Assembly (NCBI GenBank): GCA_903642325.1
Contig: CAHJWM010000035.1
Span: 1 to 58,698, forward strand
Direction of reading: 5' to 3'
Origin: Myxococcales bacterium
Lineage (GTDB): Bacteria; Myxococcota_A; Polyangia; Polyangiales; Polyangiaceae
DNA length: 58,698 bases
Under the pieces are notes generated by a model that was not told the DNA's origin, did not search any database, and saw only the letters and a list, made by a program, of their open reading frames with translations. Position 1 is the first letter of the stretch. The number at the start of each line of letters is the position of its first letter. The position numbers were made by a program, and so were the translations under genes. Below are positions 1-34,239 of this stretch, piece after piece.

Positions 1-90
1 CGGTTCCACCGATGCCTGCGGTTCCACCGATGCCTGCGGTTCCACCGATGCCTGCGGTTCCACCGATGCCTGCGGTTCCACCGATGCCTG
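1..90. repeat. 18-bp tandem repeat, five perfect copies
   Basis: Five identical 18-bp units (cggttccaccgatgcctg) fill bases 1-90 and continue out of the window. On the minus strand each unit encodes Ala-Gly-Ile-Gly-Gly-Thr in the lipoprotein frame. The period is a multiple of three, so changes in copy number would lengthen or shorten the linker without a frameshift. Confidence 0.95.
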
Positions 91-328
91 CGGTTGCGGC
101 CGCCCCTGCTTCACCGCCCTCACCAGCGTCCCCGCCTACCAGTACCGGCGCGCGGCCGGCGCTGCCAGAACCGCCCTTGCCGGCATCTCCTCCGCGTCCG
201 CCCTCGGGTCGCGCGCCAGCCTCGCCGGCGTCTCCCAAGACGCTTTTCAACGCGTCTTCGTCGCTACAAGCGAACGCCGTTACTGCCGCTGCGACCACAA
301 GGAATCCAGATAGACTAAGGTACCGCAC
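1..328 (-). CDS. Gly-rich lipoprotein, N-terminal part (runs off the left edge)
   Basis: The minus strand opens with a GTG at 328-326, preceded by a GGGAGA ribosome-binding site about 8 bases upstream. It encodes a short N-region, a hydrophobic core (LVVAAAVTAFA) and Cys21, a convincing type II signal peptide/lipobox, so the product should be an outer-membrane-directed lipoprotein. After Cys21 comes an acidic segment and then Gly/Ala-rich sequence ending in the hexapeptide AGIGGT repeated in perfect 18-bp units up to the window edge. Such Gly-rich linkers after a lipobox are familiar in myxobacterial surface lipoproteins. The functional domain lies outside the window, so no activity can be assigned. 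It is divergent from the methyltransferase at 650. Confidence 0.8.
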   Translation of the reverse strand, partial: MRYLSLSGFLVVAAAVTAFACSDEDALKSVLGDAGEAGARPEGGRGGDAGKGGSGSAGRAPVLVGGDAGEGGEAGAAATAGIGGTAGIGGTAGIGGTAGIGGTAGIGGT

Positions 329-649
329 TGCCTATTCTCCCTGCAGGAAGTAACCCTGCTTAAACCGCTGAAACTACTTTCCGACACATAGCATCTCTTC
401 ACTCTGTGTCCACTAGGCCGAATGCCGCTTTTCGGCGAAATCCGTGCGATTCGCCGCTCGGCATCGACGAATTCTATACGCGACACCGATCGGCCGACCA
501 CCCCTGCACGCAGAAAATCCAAGAGTGCAATGAGCGGCAACGCCGCCAAGTTTGGGCGGTCGTTGCTCCACGATTCACCGTGTCAAAAATGCGGACTGCA
601 GGGCCGCCCTCGACTTGACGCAAGTGCGGCCAAAGGGGAAGAGCGGACG
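329..649. other. Divergent intergenic region with an extended inverted repeat
   Basis: About 320 bases separate the divergently read lipoprotein and methyltransferase genes. The open frame upstream of the methyltransferase start (422-649) has no recognisable protein character. The region should hold both promoters; no clear -35/-10 pair was identified. Its one clear structure is the nested palindrome at 422-464. Confidence 0.6.
422..464. repeat. Nested inverted repeat (possible operator or RNA hairpin)
   Basis: Inner arms CGGCGAA (433-439) and TTCGCCG (450-456) are perfectly complementary around a 10-base loop. Outer arms ATGCCG (422-427) and CGGCAT (459-464) also pair perfectly, separated from the inner arms by short unpaired stretches (5 and 2 bases). 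That gives 13 base pairs in a 43-base element midway between two divergent genes. There is no T-tract, so it is not an obvious terminator. Confidence 0.6.
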
Positions 650-1498
650 ATGAACGCTCCTTTGTGGTCCCGGCTCCTTTACAGGGCCAGCCGAGCGTTG
701 ACCGCTCTCGATGTGGGCCAACAGATCGTGCGTGACGAGCTGCTCTTCGCGTTTTTGGAACCGCGCGCCCGTAGTGGCCTGACCTTCGACGCCTATACCC
801 GCAGCCGGGGATACGTGGATGGTGGCGAGCATTTCGTCCAGGGACTCTTCGCGTGGGAATTAGCCCTTCTCAACGATGATCGCGTTCCGCATTCCGGGCG
901 GGTGCTCCTCGGAGCCGCCGGCGGCGGACGCGAGCTTCATGGGCTTATACAGCGCGGTTACGAGGTGTTCGCGTTTGAGCCCGTCGCGCCGCTATTAAAA
1001 AGCGCGCGAGCCGTTGCTGGCGGTTCCAACGCGGTGCTGGTCCAAGCGAGCTACCAAGACCTTGTGTCCAGAGCCCTGGGCAAGCCGGGGGCTCTGGACA
1101 GCTTGAACGGCCACATCGACCTATGTCTATTGGGATGGGGCAGCATTTCGCATTTGACCGAGCCAAACGCGGCCCTTGAAACGTTCAGAGCGTTACGTGC
1201 GATCGCACCTGAAGCGCCGGTCATCGTGAGCTTCATTCTTCTGCGTACCGGGACTCCAGATGTGAAGGGGGGCGCGCGTAAGCTGCGGCGTGGACTTAGG
1301 CGAATACTCGAAGCTGCGGGGAAACCGCGGGTTCAAACGGGACTCAGGTTTGTCACGAGCTGTGGTTTTTTTTATGAATTCTCGCGCAGCGAGTTAACCG
1401 AAATCTGCGCGCTTGCAGGCTATGAGGTCGCGCGCTTCAGCGAGCTGCCACACCCTCATGCGTTGCTGCTTCCGATTGCCGCAGCTCCTAACGGCTGA
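650..1498 (+). CDS. Class I SAM-dependent methyltransferase
   Basis: This 282-residue protein has a class I methyltransferase fold signature: motif I is VLLGAAGGGREL at residues 85-96, followed by an acidic residue closing beta-2 (FAFEP, Glu110). The substrate cannot be read from the sequence. I place the start at the ATG at 650 because GGGGAAGAG lies just upstream; the longer open frame back to 422 would cross the palindrome and has no domain content. The 3' end overlaps the convergent ABC-transporter gene by 43 bases. Its position beside a kinase/ABC/peptide module makes a tailoring role there possible, but it may equally serve the polysaccharide locus. Confidence 0.75.
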   Translation: MNAPLWSRLLYRASRALTALDVGQQIVRDELLFAFLEPRARSGLTFDAYTRSRGYVDGGEHFVQGLFAWELALLNDDRVPHSGRVLLGAAGGGRELHGLIQRGYEVFAFEPVAPLLKSARAVAGGSNAVLVQASYQDLVSRALGKPGALDSLNGHIDLCLLGWGSISHLTEPNAALETFRALRAIAPEAPVIVSFILLRTGTPDVKGGARKLRRGLRRILEAAGKPRVQTGLRFVTSCGFFYEFSRSELTEICALAGYEVARFSELPHPHALLLPIAAAPNG

Positions 1499-3039
1499 CG
1501 CTCCAGGTCGATCACTTGGCCGTCGCTCGGCAACCAGTCTTCTCGGTGAGAAACCACGATCACGGCACGTTCGGACAGCTGTCGCTCCAAGACGCGCGCC
1601 AAGCCCCTGCGTCCTTCAGTGTCGAGCCAGACGTCGGGCTCGTCCAATAGTAGTACGCGCGGCGCCTTCAAGATGGCTCGAGCAATGGCGACGCGTCGCT
1701 GCTCACCCCGAGAAAGCGCCCCGGCGATCGTATCTAGCGGGCGCGAAAGACCAATCTCCTGCAGGGCCTCCGTGATCGCCTTGGCGGTCGAATGGGGCGA
1801 AATCAGGCGAACATTTTCCTCGATCGTGAGAGCTTCGATGATCAAGGGGTTCTGCGGTACGAGCCCGAAGTCGTCGCGGGCAACATCGCTGCAGTCGACG
1901 CCGTCGATTCGGAGCGTACCGCCGTCCGCGGTCAACACGCCACAAATCAGGCGAGCGAGCGTTGTTTTGCCGGTGCCATTTGGAGCAACGATCAGCGTTA
2001 ATCTACGAAGGTCCACGCGGAAACTAAGCGGCCGCAGTCCCGAGCGTCGTGGCGAGCCGGGGTAGGAAAAGAAGACGCCCTCCGCGACGAGGGTCTCGGG
2101 GCGTTTCGACAGAGCCACGGATTGCTCGACGCGGGCCGAGGCGGGCGAAACGAGTATTGTTAGGGAACCGTAGGCGGTTAGCAGTGAATCGGCATGCTCC
2201 GCCAACACGTAAAATACGGGAAGCCCTGTGCTCAGCAAAAGCCAAGCCGAAACACTACCAACGCGCAAAGCGCGATTGGATTGCGAATCGAAGGGATCGA
2301 ATTGTTGTGACCTCATGACGGCGAAGAAAGCAATCGCCAATACGGTTCCGATCAGCAGCCGTTGCTTCAGTCGCCCGAGGTCTAGCCGCTCCTCGGCCAG
2401 AGACCACTCTCGCACATTGCGGTCCAAGGTGGCGAGGAACGGTCCTCTGGCGCGGGTACCGTATATTTCGCCGCTATCCCGCTCGGCAGTCGCGACCCAA
2501 GCTGCTGCACGTTGTCGATGCGCGACAACGGCGTTTATCGCAGACTGGCGCCAGCGGTTGGTCCAAACCGTCAGGCAGACGATGAAGAGTAACAGTGCGC
2601 CCAATGAAAACACTGCTCGTGCGCCCGCCGTTGGCACGGCAAGCACGAGAATGCTCGCGCCGGCTAGGCTCGCGGCGACGAGTGCGGGCACGTCGTTGGT
2701 GATGGCGCGTTCGAGCCAATATGCTGCCCAAAACGCAGACTCGACATCCGCCTCTGGCACGAGGGCACGCTTATCGAGTGCCCGGCGCGCCGTTTCATGA
2801 ATGAATCGGGCCCGGACGCGGCTCTTTAGCTTGCGTCGGACCGCCGTCCTCACCACCTCGAGCCCGACACCGCCGAAGATAGGTAGCGCCGCGAAACCGC
2901 TTCCAAGCTTTAAAACCGTCAGCGGCAATGCCATCAGTGTTGCGAATTGAAAAGCCGCGATCATCACTAGCGTCGGTAGCCAGTGTCGCGCTTCGCCGAG
3001 CCAGCGCTGATGTTCGCGCGGTGGCTTAGTCGCCGTCAG
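1456..3039 (-). CDS. ABC transporter, fused membrane and ATPase domains (exporter-like)
   Basis: The N-terminal 300 or so residues contain several hydrophobic segments (the first is LVMIAAFQFATLMALPLTVL), as in exporter half-transporters. The C-terminal ATPase has Walker A PNGTGKTT (about 353-360 counting from 3039), a Q-loop (LVPQNPL), signature LSRGEQ (about 442), Walker B VLLLDEPD (about 462-469) and H-loop SHRED. The start is uncertain: the open frame runs back to 3555 inside the upstream kinase gene with no protein character. Options are a CTG at 3039 overlapping the kinase stop, or GTG/ATG at 2967/2964. It is the last gene of the peptide-kinase-transporter operon, the position of the D exporter in lasso-peptide clusters. 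The cargo is unknown. Confidence 0.8.
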   Translation of the reverse strand: MTATKPPREHQRWLGEARHWLPTLVMIAAFQFATLMALPLTVLKLGSGFAALPIFGGVGLEVVRTAVRRKLKSRVRARFIHETARRALDKRALVPEADVESAFWAAYWLERAITNDVPALVAASLAGASILVLAVPTAGARAVFSLGALLLFIVCLTVWTNRWRQSAINAVVAHRQRAAAWVATAERDSGEIYGTRARGPFLATLDRNVREWSLAEERLDLGRLKQRLLIGTVLAIAFFAVMRSQQFDPFDSQSNRALRVGSVSAWLLLSTGLPVFYVLAEHADSLLTAYGSLTILVSPASARVEQSVALSKRPETLVAEGVFFSYPGSPRRSGLRPLSFRVDLRRLTLIVAPNGTGKTTLARLICGVLTADGGTLRIDGVDCSDVARDDFGLVPQNPLIIEALTIEENVRLISPHSTAKAITEALQEIGLSRPLDTIAGALSRGEQRRVAIARAILKAPRVLLLDEPDVWLDTEGRRGLARVLERQLSERAVIVVSHREDWLPSDGQVIDLERQPLGAAAIGSSNA

Positions 3040-4007
3040 GAAGCCTCGCTGCGCGACCCGCCAGGTTGACCAAGGGACCGTGCCAGGAAGACCAACCGGT
3101 CTACGGCGCCGAGTGGATCGGTGAGAAAGTCGGTGCCCAGCTGAAGCCGCGCGATGCGTGAAACGGTGACCAATCGCGCGAGCAGGTCCAGATGCCCGCG
3201 CGGATTCGGGTGGCACCTTAGGCTCAATGCATTGGACTGAGCAATGACAAGACCCACCGCCTCGGCCTGCGAAAGTGGCTGTAAGCACGAGCTGTCGGCC
3301 CCCGAGCGTTCCAGAAACAGCAACGTTTTCCGCCCGAGCCAGTGACTGAGACGGCGCTCCGGGAACGCAGCGAAAACATCTAACTTCCATTTCTGCTCGC
3401 TGGCGAGCTTGGAAGTGTGTGCGCTCAGCGCGCTGAAAGAGGCGAGGGAATGGTTGGTGAGACGGAACGACGACCCAATGGGCAGCAGCTCCACATCCCC
3501 CGATCGCTCCCGGATCAAGCAGCCGTCGTCTCCGAGATAGCGAGCGCCTGCGCACACGAGCGCGGTTGCAGTAGTGCTCTTTCCGGTGCCCGAGTTGCCA
3601 ACGAGTAGCAGCATCTGCTCTTCAAAGCACACGGCTGCCGCATGAATGCCGTACACACCCATCGACCGAAGCGCAACAATCAGCGCTCCTAAGAGTAGCT
3701 CACGTGTCGCTTCGCTGAATCCTAAGATCCCGCGAATCTTTGGGGGCGACCCTTCGATCGTAAACCAAGCGTGCTCGTGGTTACCGACCAACAGCCCGCT
3801 GGACGTACGGCCCAACCAGCCACCTGGTTCTTCTAGGAACAGTTCGAGCACGGTTGGCGCACGCTGAGTCCCGTCCGTGAGGACCTCGACTTCGACGATC
3901 GGCCCACTTGCTACATCTGAGATTGGGTCTAGCCAGGGCGCGAGGGCGCCGGCGGAAGCGCTATCCAGAGACAAGCGGACGCCGTGCAAAGTGGCCGGGG
4001 GGTTCAC
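3036..4007 (-). CDS. HPr kinase-like P-loop protein (RiPP/EPS-associated type)
   Basis: The 323-residue product has the central P-loop of HPr Ser kinase C-terminal domains: VGNSGTGKST at 136-145, preceded by a His in a beta-rich run (GIHAAAV) and followed by LGDDG at 158-162, the acidic pair expected to bind metal. No phosphotransferase-system partner is nearby. Homologues of this class occur in lasso-peptide clusters, where PadeK-type enzymes phosphorylate the precursor, and in exopolysaccharide loci. It starts with GTG 13 bases after the stop of the small peptide gene and overlaps or abuts the transporter gene, so the three are almost certainly one operon. A peptide kinase role is an inference from that context. 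Confidence 0.8.
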   Translation of the reverse strand: MNPPATLHGVRLSLDSASAGALAPWLDPISDVASGPIVEVEVLTDGTQRAPTVLELFLEEPGGWLGRTSSGLLVGNHEHAWFTIEGSPPKIRGILGFSEATRELLLGALIVALRSMGVYGIHAAAVCFEEQMLLLVGNSGTGKSTTATALVCAGARYLGDDGCLIRERSGDVELLPIGSSFRLTNHSLASFSALSAHTSKLASEQKWKLDVFAAFPERRLSHWLGRKTLLFLERSGADSSCLQPLSQAEAVGLVIAQSNALSLRCHPNPRGHLDLLARLVTVSRIARLQLGTDFLTDPLGAVDRLVFLARSLGQPGGSRSEAS

Positions 4008-4020
4008 CTAACAGTTGGAG

Positions 4021-4170
4021 TCAGTGCTGACTCGGCGAGAAAAGCGTCGCACTCTGAACTGAGCGGCCGCGCGTGACCTTGGGCGGTTCGTATGCTCGAC
4101 CTAAAGCAGCCGGCTCAGCGGTGGTTTCCGCGGGTTGTTCGCTTGTTGGCTCAGGCGGTTTTGAACTCAT
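4021..4170 (-). CDS. Candidate RiPP precursor peptide with lasso-leader-like motif
   Basis: A 49-residue protein starting at ATG 4170-4168, preceded by GAGAG; the frame continues to a TTG at 4209, which I consider less likely. The N-terminal half is Pro/Glu/Thr-rich and disordered-looking. The C-terminal half reads AYEPPKVTRG then RSVQSATLFSPSQH. The Tyr-x-Pro-Pro-x-Val-x3-Gly-x6-Thr spacing resembles the leader signature (Tyr, Pro, Leu/Val, Gly, penultimate Thr) recognised by RRE domains in lasso-peptide systems. The seven residues after Thr (LFSPSQH) contain two Ser and no Asp/Glu ring acceptor, so a lasso fold is not expected. It is immediately followed by the kinase gene. If real, the kinase target may be one of those Ser residues. 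Confidence 0.5.
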   Translation of the reverse strand: MSSKPPEPTSEQPAETTAEPAALGRAYEPPKVTRGRSVQSATLFSPSQH

Positions 4171-4401: not shown

Positions 4402-5586
4402 GTGCCGCGCGAGGCTAACCTGAAGCCGAACAGCCCACATCCCTTCACGCCTCCTCGTGTCCGAATCGACGCGGACCTCGCTTGGTTGCTCCGGGCAGCG
4501 TTTGCGAGCGATGTGAACCGAGTACCGTCGAATCGCTCGGAGCACGCGTTGCAGCTGGCTCGTGCGACTCAGCTCTCTGGCCGGGTAGCCGCGAGATTGG
4601 GTGCTTGGCGCGCGCTGTCGCTTAGGACCCTCTCGCCGGGTTTCAGCGAGGATTATTACGCGAACGTCGCCAAGGAGACTCTGCTGATGCAGGCGGAGCA
4701 GAGGATCTCGGAGCTTGCTGCGCGGCTCCGCATCCCCGTGGTCGCTGTGAAGTTTGGAGGGCTACGCCTCGCTGGCGCCATTCTCCTTGGCGTACGGGTC
4801 GCCGCCGACCTCGATATCCTGCTACCCAAGTCATACGCTCGTACATTTTGGTGCGCACTCCTCGACGCCGGATTTCGGAGAACCAACTCCCGCGAGTATT
4901 CGCACCAATTGGAGGCGCTCGTCGATCCGCACGGCGCGGTCATCGATGTGCATACTCATCTGCCCGGTGTGGTCGTGGAAAAAGGCGGCTTCGCAACGGC
5001 CGATCAGCTGGTCGCTCACCGGTTGGTAACTCCGGCGCATGGGGCCATGCTCGTCCCGAGCACTTACGTGCTGGCGGCTCATGCAGTCGCTCACGCGTTG
5101 GTTCAGAATCGCTCGACGCCGCAGACTTATTCGCCGCTCCGCATGCTTGCGGACATAATGGATTTGCGGCAGACGGACCTTCGGGTAGTGGAGCACGCCG
5201 CGCGCTATCTTGCACCGGAGCTTAGCCTGACTTGCGCGAGTCTAGAGCGCCTGTGCGGCGTACTCGCCGACGGGGGTTTCGACGGGCCGGGCTTTGATGG
5301 GACGAGCGAACAGACGTTGCTTTCACACTGCCTCGCGGCTCGACTCGACTTCGACTATTCGGAGCAATTGAGGGCAGGCGGCCTTGCCGACAAGTTCAGG
5401 GACGGCTCGAGTACCACCGAGATTGTACGGTACGTCGCCGACTTGATTTACCCATCGGAATCAGCGCTTGACGTCTTGTACGGCCCTGCGGTGGGAGTCC
5501 TGCGGCGCGCTCGTCGGCGCTTGCTCCGCCCACTCGACCTCTTCATTCGCGGATCGCGTCGCTTGGCGCGCTCGGTTACCAGATAG
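4402..5586 (+). CDS. NTP_transf_5-type nucleotidyltransferase family protein
   Basis: The 394-residue protein carries the hallmark of the uncharacterised nucleotidyltransferase family found in RiPP and exopolysaccharide loci: a Lys-containing strand (VVAVKFGGLRL, Lys117), then R-x3-DLD (Arg132, Asp136, Asp138; VAADLDILLP), which in this fold binds the metal-NTP. Its partner could be a peptide or a sugar; the family reaction is not established here. The start is a GTG at 4402, divergent from the peptide-kinase-ABC operon across a gap of about 230 bases. It precedes the large polymerase-like gene by 45 bases. In the paeninodin lasso-peptide cluster an equivalent nucleotidyltransferase accompanies the kinase. 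Confidence 0.8.
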   Translation: MPREANLKPNSPHPFTPPRVRIDADLAWLLRAAFASDVNRVPSNRSEHALQLARATQLSGRVAARLGAWRALSLRTLSPGFSEDYYANVAKETLLMQAEQRISELAARLRIPVVAVKFGGLRLAGAILLGVRVAADLDILLPKSYARTFWCALLDAGFRRTNSREYSHQLEALVDPHGAVIDVHTHLPGVVVEKGGFATADQLVAHRLVTPAHGAMLVPSTYVLAAHAVAHALVQNRSTPQTYSPLRMLADIMDLRQTDLRVVEHAARYLAPELSLTCASLERLCGVLADGGFDGPGFDGTSEQTLLSHCLAARLDFDYSEQLRAGGLADKFRDGSSTTEIVRYVADLIYPSESALDVLYGPAVGVLRRARRRLLRPLDLFIRGSRRLARSVTR

Positions 5587-31812: not shown

Positions 31813-32298
31813 GTTGATTATTTCGTCCGTAGCACGTTCATGGCAGAGACCGTTAGGTAGAGCTGACAGCGGCACCCGCTGTCTGATCGCGAACGCGTCG
31901 TTTAGTCAATGCCGCCAGGACAACCCGGCGCGTAAAATCCTTCAGCCCGGCGCATATTGCAAGGGCAAGCACCCTTGAAAGATGAGTGGGCGGCAAATGC
32001 CGATACTTTGTGGCGGATTCCGTTGCTATGCTCAGCGCGCGCAATTTTCGCGCCTAGCGATACAGGGGCGAGGAGCTGGCAAAACCCGTCCGAGTGAAAC
32101 GAGGAGTGGCATGGAACGGCCAGCAAGTGATGTGACGAGGCGCTGCATACGAACCGCTCCGGCTACCGGTTGCTTTGAGATGGACAGTTTCGCTCCAAGA
32201 ACGTCAAACGCTGCTCGCCGAATGCTCGACATGCTCTCTGACGCGATACAGTGGGCTGAGCTGAGGCGCTGCGTTAGGAAGGCTGGCGGAGCTCGTTG
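31813..32298. other. Divergent intergenic region with small hairpins
   Basis: The 486 bases between the lipoprotein and amidotransferase genes contain no convincing gene. A perfect inverted repeat CAAGGG/CCCTTG lies at 31960-31965/31972-31977 with a 6-base loop, and a second one, GCGCG/CGCGC around CAATTTT, spans about 32037-32053. These may mark leader RNA structure or operators for either gene. Confidence 0.45.
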
Positions 32299-34239
32299 AT
32301 GTGCGGGATTGCAGGACTAATAGGTGTCGATCCCGACATCGGGCGTGATGTGTCGAAGCGCATGATGGCGGCGCTCCGTCATCGTGGCCCGAACGACCAA
32401 GGTATCGGGTCCGTTGTGTCTCGGGACGGCACTGTTCCCCCCGCCGTGCTTGTGCACACACGGCTCTCGATCATCGATTTATCGCCGGCGGGTCACCAGC
32501 CGATGGCTGATCGACCTCTTGGCTCCCAACGTCCGAACCACGTGGTTTTCAACGGGGAGATCTACAATCACGAGTCACTGCGCGCCGAGCTAGAGGCCGC
32601 GGGCCAACCTAGCCATCGGCGCTGCGATACCGAGGTGATCCTCCAGGGTTATCGCGCATGGGGCGAAGCCGCTGTGGAGCGCTTCGAGGGCATGTTCGCT
32701 TTTTGCTTGCTCGACGCCGAACGCGACCGAGTTTGGCTTTGCCGTGACCGCATGGGCATCAAGCCGCTCTACCTATTCCGTCCTCGTACGGGGGGGCTGG
32801 TCTTCGCGTCAGAGGTCCGAGGCATCCTCGCAGCGCGCCCAGAGCTCGTGGAGGGCCGCCTGAACCGTGCTGCGCTGGAGAGCTTTCTCGCCCAAGGCGC
32901 AGTCATCGGCCGCGACAGCATCGTCGAAGGGATAACAATGCTTCCCGCGGGCGAATCCATGCTCTGTGACTTCTCGGGCCGTTCCGTTCGATCGAGGACA
33001 TATTGGCTGGCTCCGTTCGCGGAGACCAAGCCGCGGTCTGGCGGCACGTCACGACTAGAGTGCGTAGCTGAGCTCAATAAGGCCCTGCGAACGTCAGTTA
33101 AGGATTCACTCGTCGCAGACGTTCCAGTGGGCCTATTCTTATCGGGGGGCATCGACTCTGCTGCAATCGCTACGATCGCCACCGAGGTTGAAACGGCTCG
33201 TGTGCATACGCTGAGCATCGGCTTCGATGTGGCTGCATACGACGAGACGGCAGAGGCAGACCAGGTCGCGCGGAAGCTTGGTACCGAGCACCGTACGGTG
33301 AAGCTGAGCGGTTTAGATGCAGTTGCTGCCTTCGATGATGTATTTGCGAGCGCCGACCAGCCCACCGTCGACGGCTTTAATACATATTTCGTGTCGCGGG
33401 CCGCTCACGACAGTGGGCTCACCGTCGCGCTCAGTGGGCTCGGCGGTGACGAACTGTTTGGAGGTTACGCCACGTTTCGAGATTTGCCGAAGGCGTTGGG
33501 GCTGGCGAAACTGACTAGCCTGTTGCCTGCGGTGTCGCGTCGAATCGCGCCGTTTGCTCGCCATCTCCCTAACCGCAGCGGGCTGAAATTATCGTCATTG
33601 CTGGAGCACCCTGCCGATCTGCTCCGTCTCTATCTGCTTCGACGTGAGCTCCTACTTAAACCGGAAAGGCGGGCGCTTCAGCAGCTGCCCTCGCGGTCCG
33701 ATCCTTGGTCCGGTGTAAGCGAAAAAGTACTCGAGGACGCGAGATCCGTCGTGCAGGGAATTCCGGACACTCTCGATCGCGTCTCATGGCTCGAATGCTC
33801 CATCTACATGGCAAACATGCTGCTGCGCGACTCGGATGTCTTCAGCATGGCAAATGCGATCGAACTGCGGGTGCCGTTGCTCGAGCGGGCAGTAGTCGAA
33901 AGCGCCGCCCGCGCACGTGCCGAGTGGCGTCGCGCGGACCCACGTTCAAAACCGCTCTTGCTCGATGCCGTCGGAAGCCGACTACCACCCGAAGTTTGGT
34001 CCAGGAAAAAGCGCGGCTTTACATTTCCGTGGTCGGAATGGTTGCGCGGTCCGCTAGCCGCCCGGTGCGAGGCTGCCGTAGTCGACACGCGAAAGTGGCA
34101 GTCGCTCGGTTTTGATACGGCCGAACCACGGCGGCTTTGGAAGCGATTCAAGAACGCAGACCCAGCTGTTGGTGGCCTGCAGATGCTCGCCCTGCTCGCA
34201 TTGTCGGATTATGCGGAGCGAAACCAGCTTAGTATCTAA
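32299..34239 (+). CDS. asnB: Glutamine-hydrolysing asparagine synthase-like amidotransferase
   Basis: The 646-residue protein starts MCGIAGLIGV; the Cys exposed after Met removal is the Ntn-type glutaminase nucleophile, so ATG 32299 must be the start, not the TTG 3 bases before. RHRGPNDQG and FNGEIYNH belong to the glutaminase domain. The synthase domain has the PPi loop SGGIDS (282-287) and later SGLGGDELFGGY. Family members make Asn, but those in glycan loci are thought to amidate sugar carboxylates, and a relative closes the ring in lasso peptides. Here a uronate-forming dehydrogenase is in the same locus, so uronamide formation is plausible. It is followed by a GT4 gene after 10 bases. 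Confidence 0.92.
   Translation: MCGIAGLIGVDPDIGRDVSKRMMAALRHRGPNDQGIGSVVSRDGTVPPAVLVHTRLSIIDLSPAGHQPMADRPLGSQRPNHVVFNGEIYNHESLRAELEAAGQPSHRRCDTEVILQGYRAWGEAAVERFEGMFAFCLLDAERDRVWLCRDRMGIKPLYLFRPRTGGLVFASEVRGILAARPELVEGRLNRAALESFLAQGAVIGRDSIVEGITMLPAGESMLCDFSGRSVRSRTYWLAPFAETKPRSGGTSRLECVAELNKALRTSVKDSLVADVPVGLFLSGGIDSAAIATIATEVETARVHTLSIGFDVAAYDETAEADQVARKLGTEHRTVKLSGLDAVAAFDDVFASADQPTVDGFNTYFVSRAAHDSGLTVALSGLGGDELFGGYATFRDLPKALGLAKLTSLLPAVSRRIAPFARHLPNRSGLKLSSLLEHPADLLRLYLLRRELLLKPERRALQQLPSRSDPWSGVSEKVLEDARSVVQGIPDTLDRVSWLECSIYMANMLLRDSDVFSMANAIELRVPLLERAVVESAARARAEWRRADPRSKPLLLDAVGSRLPPEVWSRKKRGFTFPWSEWLRGPLAARCEAAVVDTRKWQSLGFDTAEPRRLWKRFKNADPAVGGLQMLALLALSDYAERNQLSI

Follow-up and report, generated by a model that had tools for sequence, protein, structure and literature searches.

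The 49-codon reading frame at positions 4021 to 4170 of the window (the whole stretch of DNA analysed, 58,698 nucleotides) is confirmed by sequence comparison as a real gene and a member of a myxobacterial peptide family. This linear family, counted at 31 loci in Myxococcota, is, as read from its genes, a group of uncatalogued myxobacterial peptides that carry a lasso-type leader and are predicted to give no lasso product. It is moderately probable that the window encodes a reduced linear phosphopeptide (RiPP) system in which a leader of lasso type is handled without a cyclase. The family itself, its conserved positions, gene content and trees, the kinase and B2 motifs, the missing cyclase and the missing radical SAM gene are all observed features. 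None of the papers found in a search of the open PubMed Central literature, judged by title or the start of the abstract, describes this peptide family. The genes concerned are as follows; those on contig C88 are numbered in stretch L042.

4021..4170, minus strand: precursor peptide gene, 49 codons from ATG, MSSKPPEPTSEQPAETTAEPAALGRAYEPPKVTRGRSVQSATLFSPSQH; leader Y27-x-x-P30-x-V32 ... T42-L43, then FSPSQH
4036..4038, minus strand: codon of Ser45, at conserved S/T position 19 (motif Tyr = 1), the proposed phosphorylation site
3036..4007, minus strand: HprK-like peptide kinase gene; the protein has the His, P-loop and Asp-Asp residues described for BsfK, with identical spacing
1456..3555, minus strand: ABC exporter gene (PF00005), open frame
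4402..5586, plus strand: NTP_transf_5 nucleotidyltransferase gene (PF14907), 44.1 bits against a cut-off of 31.2, divergently transcribed
650..1498, plus strand: gene for a methyltransferase-like protein, with homologues in 14/31 family stretches, window included
1..331, minus strand: 5' part of a propeller lipoprotein gene with repeats, which crosses the contig end into C88
L042 10277-10711, contig C88: B2 gene, after the lipoprotein gene
L042 9981-10343, contig C88: RRE (B1) gene, after the lipoprotein gene

The stop codon of the peptide gene lies 13 nt from the start of the kinase gene, both on the minus strand. Tyr27, Pro30, Val32 and Thr42 of the peptide stand in the register of lasso leaders, as the first-pass annotation of this DNA had proposed; the Gly that it had included in the signature, however, sits one residue early relative to lasso-type leaders (L134-L138). 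The bare leader motif proves nothing for this frame, because a loose pattern of this kind also matches six other short frames in the window. A profile built from relatives only (12 peptides, the window left out) recovers the frame at 30.7 bits and E=9.3e-8 among 9,941 frames, and the next-best window frame reaches E=1.1. The 12 peptides were picked by eye from matches to a Y..P pattern near kinase genes, which makes the Y and P of this profile circular; Leu17 and Ser/Thr19 lie outside the selection pattern yet occur in 12/12 of these peptides. A conservation check, which had also been proposed, was run on the relatives, and NG86 dN was below dS in 23/23 close pairs (within five genera, non-independent, 31-35 codons each). 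A chance reading frame is ruled out by the profile match for the window and by dN<dS for the relatives. Seven genomes of the same genus were searched, and neither kinase nor peptide matches were found in them.

A search for kinase homologues gave matches in 33/116 genomes, the window's own included. For the 32 others, the surroundings of the homologue were examined over up to 20 kb, together with 20 stretches chosen by peptide matches, and these 52 stretches were sorted into 30 linear (with the window as the 31st), nine lasso and 13 belonging to neither. The linear and lasso labels were assigned by peptide and context; the trees described below test the labels and do not define them. The 13 left out (L058, L063, L066, L067, L068, L070, L072, L073, L075, L137, L139, L144 and L145) have a kinase without a family peptide, a weak peptide without a visible cyclase or, in L139, Asn-synthetase frames only. 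When the 20-row peptide alignment A1 (window included) was searched against the order, 46/183 genomes matched at E<=1e-3, 27 of them, among which the window's, at E<=6.2e-10; in an even draw from the phylum (377 genomes), four genomes of another family matched at E<=2.6e-13. The linear family comprises these 27 and four loci. The weaker A1 matches, in 19/46 genomes (E 4e-8 to 7e-4), are not counted as family. Few of them were examined; among those, L134, L135, L136, L138 and L146 have a cyclase adjoining the kinase, L137 has the leader only, and L139 lacks the kinase. Kinase matches in named taxa fall in Polyangium (four), Byssovorax and Minicystis, the last within Polyangiales. Two cultured strains, Polyangium fumosum DSM 14668 and Minicystis rosea DSM 24000, carry a kinase of the linear family, which makes the chemistry testable.

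Profiles made from the window's own genes find B2 in all 31 linear loci, the RRE in 30, the kinase in 29, the ABC gene in 20 and the methyltransferase-like gene in 14. The kinase is missing from L133 and L143, and the RRE from L133, all of them short stretches at contig ends. L063, which comes from the same genome as L133, begins with a radical SAM fragment followed by RRE, kinase and ABC genes, and is probably the other half of the L133 locus. PF14907 lies within ~13 kb on the peptide's contig in 18/21 family genomes searched, the exceptions being G022, G044 and G070.

The family pattern is Y-x-x-P-x-[VIL]...T-L-x-[ST]. With the motif Tyr as position 1, Tyr1, Pro4 and Leu17 are conserved in all 31 loci and Thr16 in 27; position 19 is Ser or Thr in 29 (20 Ser, nine Thr) and Pro in two. 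In a non-redundant set of 17 loci (<80% identity over positions 1-22), Thr16 occurs in 13 and Ser or Thr at position 19 in 16 (13 Ser, three Thr, with one Pro). The window core after Leu17 has six residues and is the shortest of the 31, the others having 12-30, and the Leu and Ser that are conserved in the family survive in this truncated peptide. Of the two tail Ser residues that had been thought to suit the kinase, Ser45 occupies the conserved position (S/T in 29/31), but Ser47 does not. Cysteine-bearing cores, SGEQCVFDPPPC and SGEECVFAPPPC, occur in L059 (7690-7908) and L064 (3-650) and are unlike the Met/Gly/Thr-rich cores of many members.

In the window, the kinase and ABC exporter genes share the strand of the peptide gene, and the methyltransferase-like and NTP_transf_5 genes lie on the opposite strand. 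The true start of the ABC gene is well inside the open frame 1456..3555, probably near the kinase stop at 3036. The kinase reaches 22.7 bits against Pfam Hpr_kinase_C, under the cut-off of 33.3. A Pfam scan of the methyltransferase-like protein of the window gave no match, with marginal matches in two relatives. Beyond the peptide cluster there is a large polysaccharide locus, whose genes include Wzy-like, Wzc-like and WecA-like ones. Homologues of the polysaccharide genes of the window occur in 9/31 linear stretches (window included) and in 2/9 lasso stretches; thus, the polysaccharide context of the linear family is not general.

A scan of ten window proteins revealed neither an RRE nor a B2. 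A search of the whole genome finds a single lasso-type B1/B2 pair, on contig C88; the second PqqD gene over cut-off is part of a PQQ operon. An exact 77-nt overlap, made of repeat, links the end of C88 to the window start; this repeat is present only at those two contig ends, and one frame is open across the join. For these reasons B2 and B1 are placed near the peptide gene, most likely at ~5.3 kb and ~5.7 kb, respectively, give or take the number of repeats. The lipoprotein gene that is split by the contig break (window 1-331 and L042 10720-12126) contains an 18-nt repeat array and NHL-like propeller repeats, and the array probably explains the break. Moreover, two separate gene trees place the genome's own B1 and kinase on the linear side, which supports their pairing independently of the contig join. 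The genome's B2 scores 46.6 bits against NCBIfam lasso-B2 (cut-off 33), with the Cys and His motifs present. Sequence searches of the PDB gave weak matches for the RRE (TfuB1, E=0.065; TbiB1, E=0.56) and for the kinase (an HPr kinase, E=0.0029), and nothing meaningful for B2; the AlphaFold models were poor, with a mean pLDDT of 48.3 for the kinase and 56.1 for the radical SAM protein. Both the B1/B2 pair and the radical SAM gene of the relatives had escaped the first-pass annotation because they lie outside the window.

In the nine lasso loci, a cyclase gene adjoins the kinase gene, and Gly stands at position 10 in 8/8 of the peptides examined from them. The NCBIfam lasso leader model NF033521 places 0/20 family peptides over its cut-off (one is listed, at E=0.017), whereas all eight lasso-type peptides used as a positive control pass (seven from cyclase loci, plus L137). 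In the kinase tree, 29 linear rows are split from 10 lasso rows, which include BsfK, with support of 100/100; the RRE tree splits 30 linear from nine lasso rows at 97/96. The kinase of the window and the RRE of C88 group with the linear rows of their trees, in keeping with the original suggestion that the adjacent kinase belongs with the peptide. Together with the relatives-only profile, the trees and the leader comparison also uphold the view that the gene encodes a precursor whose leader is of lasso type and which has no lasso core. In L134, L135 and L138, which are kinase-bearing lasso loci, the cyclase overlaps or abuts the precursor; their leaders, such as YAAPRLKHLGSVRDLTLG, are cousins of the linear-family leaders and come from the same bacterial family.

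No lasso cyclase lies beside the family genes, and an Asn-synthetase homologue occurs in 2/31 linear stretches, at 11.4 and 9.5 kb. At E<=1e-5, PF00733 has a match somewhere in 29/30 linear-family genomes searched (G102 left out); G172 (98% complete) has the locus and gave no match in that search. The only PF00733 gene of the window's genome lies at 32296-34239 of the window, ~28 kb from the peptide gene and inside the polysaccharide locus. It scores 154.7 bits against a lasso cyclase cut-off of 525 and passes the asparagine synthase cut-off, as an asparagine-synthase-type amidotransferase. Asp and Glu are absent from core positions 7-9 in 15/17 non-redundant family cores; L059 and L071 have one. 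In the window peptide seven residues follow Thr42, none of them Asp or Glu, which agrees with the earlier remark that no ring can close there. A lasso identity was rejected on the missing cyclase and on FSPSQH, which offers no ring acceptor. Of the features of lasso membership, the discrete RRE and the B2 peptidase are present, on the adjoining contig C88. With the leader motif and this B1/B2 pair being of lasso type, a lasso peptide served by a cyclase encoded elsewhere might be considered; given the core without an acceptor, the low score of the sole PF00733 gene and the failure of family peptides against the lasso leader model, its probability is close to nil, and the lasso reading is already contradicted by the sequence.

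The radical SAM gene played no part in the search for the family. A radical SAM homologue lies near the peptide gene in 30/31 linear loci and in 0/9 lasso loci, and in those 30 it is either the next gene after the peptide gene or the one after that. In 25 loci, its CxxxCxxC motif begins 41-176 nt past the peptide stop; in four loci of one genus, one gene stands between the two, at ~2 kb; and in L062 and L133, the radical SAM gene is cut by the contig edge. Of the four radical SAM proteins scanned, three exceed the PF04055 cut-off and that of L049 is just under it; complete copies show a repeated pattern of late cysteines. In L049 (7266-8354), the radical SAM motif lies outside the open frame of the remaining gene; a frameshift in the sequence or in the gene is possible. 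Since 30/31 loci combine a radical SAM gene with a core of 12-30 residues, the usual family product is probably also modified by the radical SAM enzyme.

The window is the sole counted locus without this gene. No orthologous radical SAM gene was found in a search of the whole 98.97%-complete assembly; the best match to the relatives' protein (28% identity, E=5e-11) is a true PqqE, belonging to the PQQ operon, and an orthologue elsewhere in the genome was accordingly rejected. The PQQ operon lies at L043 6379-9426 in the same genome, with PqqB, PqqC, PqqD and PqqE all over their NCBIfam cut-offs and its PqqD a second PqqD-type RRE. In five relatives (L047, L048, L052, L054 and L055), the peptide, radical SAM, kinase and ABC genes are consecutive on one strand, and the gene order of the window is the same minus the radical SAM gene. 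A frame whose TGA overlaps the GTG of the kinase gene reads ALTPTVR-stop and bears a faint likeness to the ends of the relatives' radical SAM proteins (TLPVVR, SLPIAR); at ~7 residues, it gives only a hint of a relic. In a concatenated tree, the window is nested among radical SAM bearers with support of 98/98 for a 25-row set that includes it. The kinase tree makes the window copy the sister of every other linear row (95/94), and a position outside the radical SAM-bearing rows is not rejected by an AU test (p=0.063). Loss of the radical SAM gene in the window lineage is favoured, and the window copy looks like a reduced, atypical member of the family, the reduction being seen in one draft assembly.

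The chemical steps, the export and the working state of the reduced locus we infer from these genes. The RRE (B1), encoded on the adjoining contig, would bind Tyr27-x-x-Pro30-x-Val32 and present the peptide, and the HprK-like kinase would phosphorylate Ser45, perhaps repeatedly. B2 would then cleave after Leu43, following the lasso rule with Thr as the penultimate residue, to release phosphorylated FSPSQH; alternatively, it may cleave after Thr42, as in LPPs, to give phosphorylated LFSPSQH. The nucleotidyltransferase may cap the phosphate, and the ABC protein would export the product, which is predicted to be six or seven residues long and phosphorylated or capped. Ser45 is Thr+3, the same offset from Thr as Ser3 of the LPP core; it becomes core residue 2 after a lasso-type cut and residue 3 after a cut at Thr42. 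Some points speak against this scheme. BsfK acts strictly on residue 3, but Ser45 would be core residue 2 after a lasso-type cut, and agreement with LPPs would need the cut after Thr42. Position 19 is Thr in nine loci and Pro in two; LppK did not phosphorylate Thr, although BsfK does. Furthermore, if the radical SAM step is indispensable, the locus in the window may no longer function. The kinase's Pfam score under cut-off and the single draft assembly in which the reduction is seen count against the scheme as well.

The window copy may thus be either a working reduced form or a recently crippled one, and the main rival to the former is a decaying locus, in which a deletion took the end of the core and the radical SAM gene while the other enzymes are still intact and the peptide makes nothing. 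The window's standing as the one locus of 31 to lack the radical SAM gene, with the shortest core, its collinearity with five relatives in all other respects, and the ALTPTVR ending are what such decay would leave. On the other side, the reading frames for the kinase, the ABC protein, the nucleotidyltransferase, B1 and B2 are open in every case, the kinase and B2 still have their motifs, the truncated peptide retains the conserved Leu and Ser, and the possible relic is short (~7 residues). We regard decay as unlikely, though it deserves serious weight. The window lineage might instead have diverged at a time when the cluster had not yet gained the radical SAM gene, in which case nothing was lost. 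Its sister position in the kinase tree and the AU test would accommodate this ancestral state; the concatenated tree, which nests it among the radical SAM bearers, and the collinear order and short core, which fit loss better, make it improbable. Finally, the peptide and kinase genes may have been wrongly joined in assembly, the true locus having a radical SAM gene and a full core. The assembly is a draft of 140 contigs, and the other loci regularly have a radical SAM gene after the peptide gene, but the contig is 58 kb long and the nearly complete assembly holds no orthologue of that gene, which leaves such an artefact very improbable.

The preferred reading, a reduced phosphopeptide system, belongs to a wider proposal that is quite possible, though we stop short of calling it probable. 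The family as a whole would combine a lasso-type RRE/B2 pair, a radical SAM maturase and an HprK-like kinase to make linear phosphopeptides that also carry a radical SAM modification, and the window would be a natural experiment: the radical SAM gene would have been lost along with the tail of its substrate, and the phosphorylation branch kept. If true, there would be two separable modules on one core, and the reduced window copy gives an indication of the part of the core that serves the kinase. The three machineries were not found described together in the literature searched.

The closest known systems are LPPs, phosphorylated lasso peptides such as bsf, and radical SAM systems with a PqqD-type RRE. 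LPPs (linear polyphosphorylated peptides), published in 2026, are akin to lasso peptides but phosphorylated and made without a cyclase, and are called restricted to Bacillota (PMC13381572). An RRE presents Y-x-x-P precursors, and in this cyclase-free system the kinase LppK polyphosphorylates Ser at Thr+3 but did not phosphorylate Thr (PMC13381572); the leader is removed after Thr by a SipW-like peptidase, LppS (PMC13381572). Like the locus described here, LPP loci are reported to contain an RRE, an HprK kinase, an NTP transferase and an exporter and no cyclase, and, like the window copy, to sit in a polysaccharide locus. The LPP leader motif, YxxPxVLxHQxIxFETxxS (PMC13381572), agrees with the window leader at Y1, P4, V6, a hydrophobic residue 12, T16 and S19 but disagrees at L7, H9, Q10, F14 and E15, and its LxHQ segment contrasts with a basic K/R-rich segment in the myxobacterial family. 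In contrast to the described LPPs with their LppS, the myxobacterial family has a lasso-type B2 in 31/31 loci; it also has a radical SAM gene in 30/31 and occurs in Myxococcota. If the proposal is true, the LPP-like idea recurs in myxobacteria, which are Gram-negative, with another peptidase and with a radical SAM gene in addition.

In the bsf system of Bradymonas, BsfK phosphorylates Ser3 of the core, strictly at residue 3, and accepts Thr, and a lasso-type B1 (RRE) speeds the kinase and, with B2, removes the leader (PMC10368454). This system (PMC10368454) and the phosphorylated lasso peptides of the paeninodin type share with the family B1, B2, the HprK-like kinase, a related leader and the spacing of the kinase motifs. 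Unlike the family, they are described with a cyclase, and the bsf core has Gly1 and Asp8; in both trees the bsf proteins (kinase and RRE) group with the lasso rows. If the family is as proposed, a lasso-type RRE/B2 pair is no safe sign of a lasso peptide.

The radical SAM systems with a PqqD-type RRE (mycofactocin, PQQ and the SynChlorMet cassette of NCBIfam) resemble the relatives in having a radical SAM protein (the best models include mycofactocin maturase, ScmF, ScmE and PqqE) and a discrete RRE. They differ in that the four family radical SAM proteins scanned score far under every cut-off, the best being mycofactocin's at 85.4 bits against 265, and in that the family has a lasso B2 and an HprK kinase. 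All of the SynChlorMet models ScmC, ScmD, ScmE and ScmF stay under cut-off: the relatives' radical SAM proteins reach up to 84.2 bits for ScmF and 75 for ScmE (cut-off 400), the RRE of L129 reaches 16.7 for ScmD (cut-off 100), and the window kinase reaches 16.9 for ScmC (cut-off 125). With regard to the maturase within the cluster that marks radical SAM RiPPs, it is present in 30/31 family loci and lacking in the window.

In L067, a peptide of similar shape, YVAPTVRDHTEPVMVFGTNAPRLPPPPAK (2363-2575, minus strand; profile E=0.54), lies near ABC, RRE and kinase genes. This 7.6-kb contig, which ends inside the kinase gene, has no cyclase and no radical SAM match, and may represent a further cyclase-free locus that lacks the radical SAM gene, either reduced or divergent. 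In L140-L143, which belong to one genus outside the order and have a peptide of the family's type, an extra gene of ~590 codons lies between the peptide and radical SAM genes, and in L140 this gene contains PD40-like repeats.
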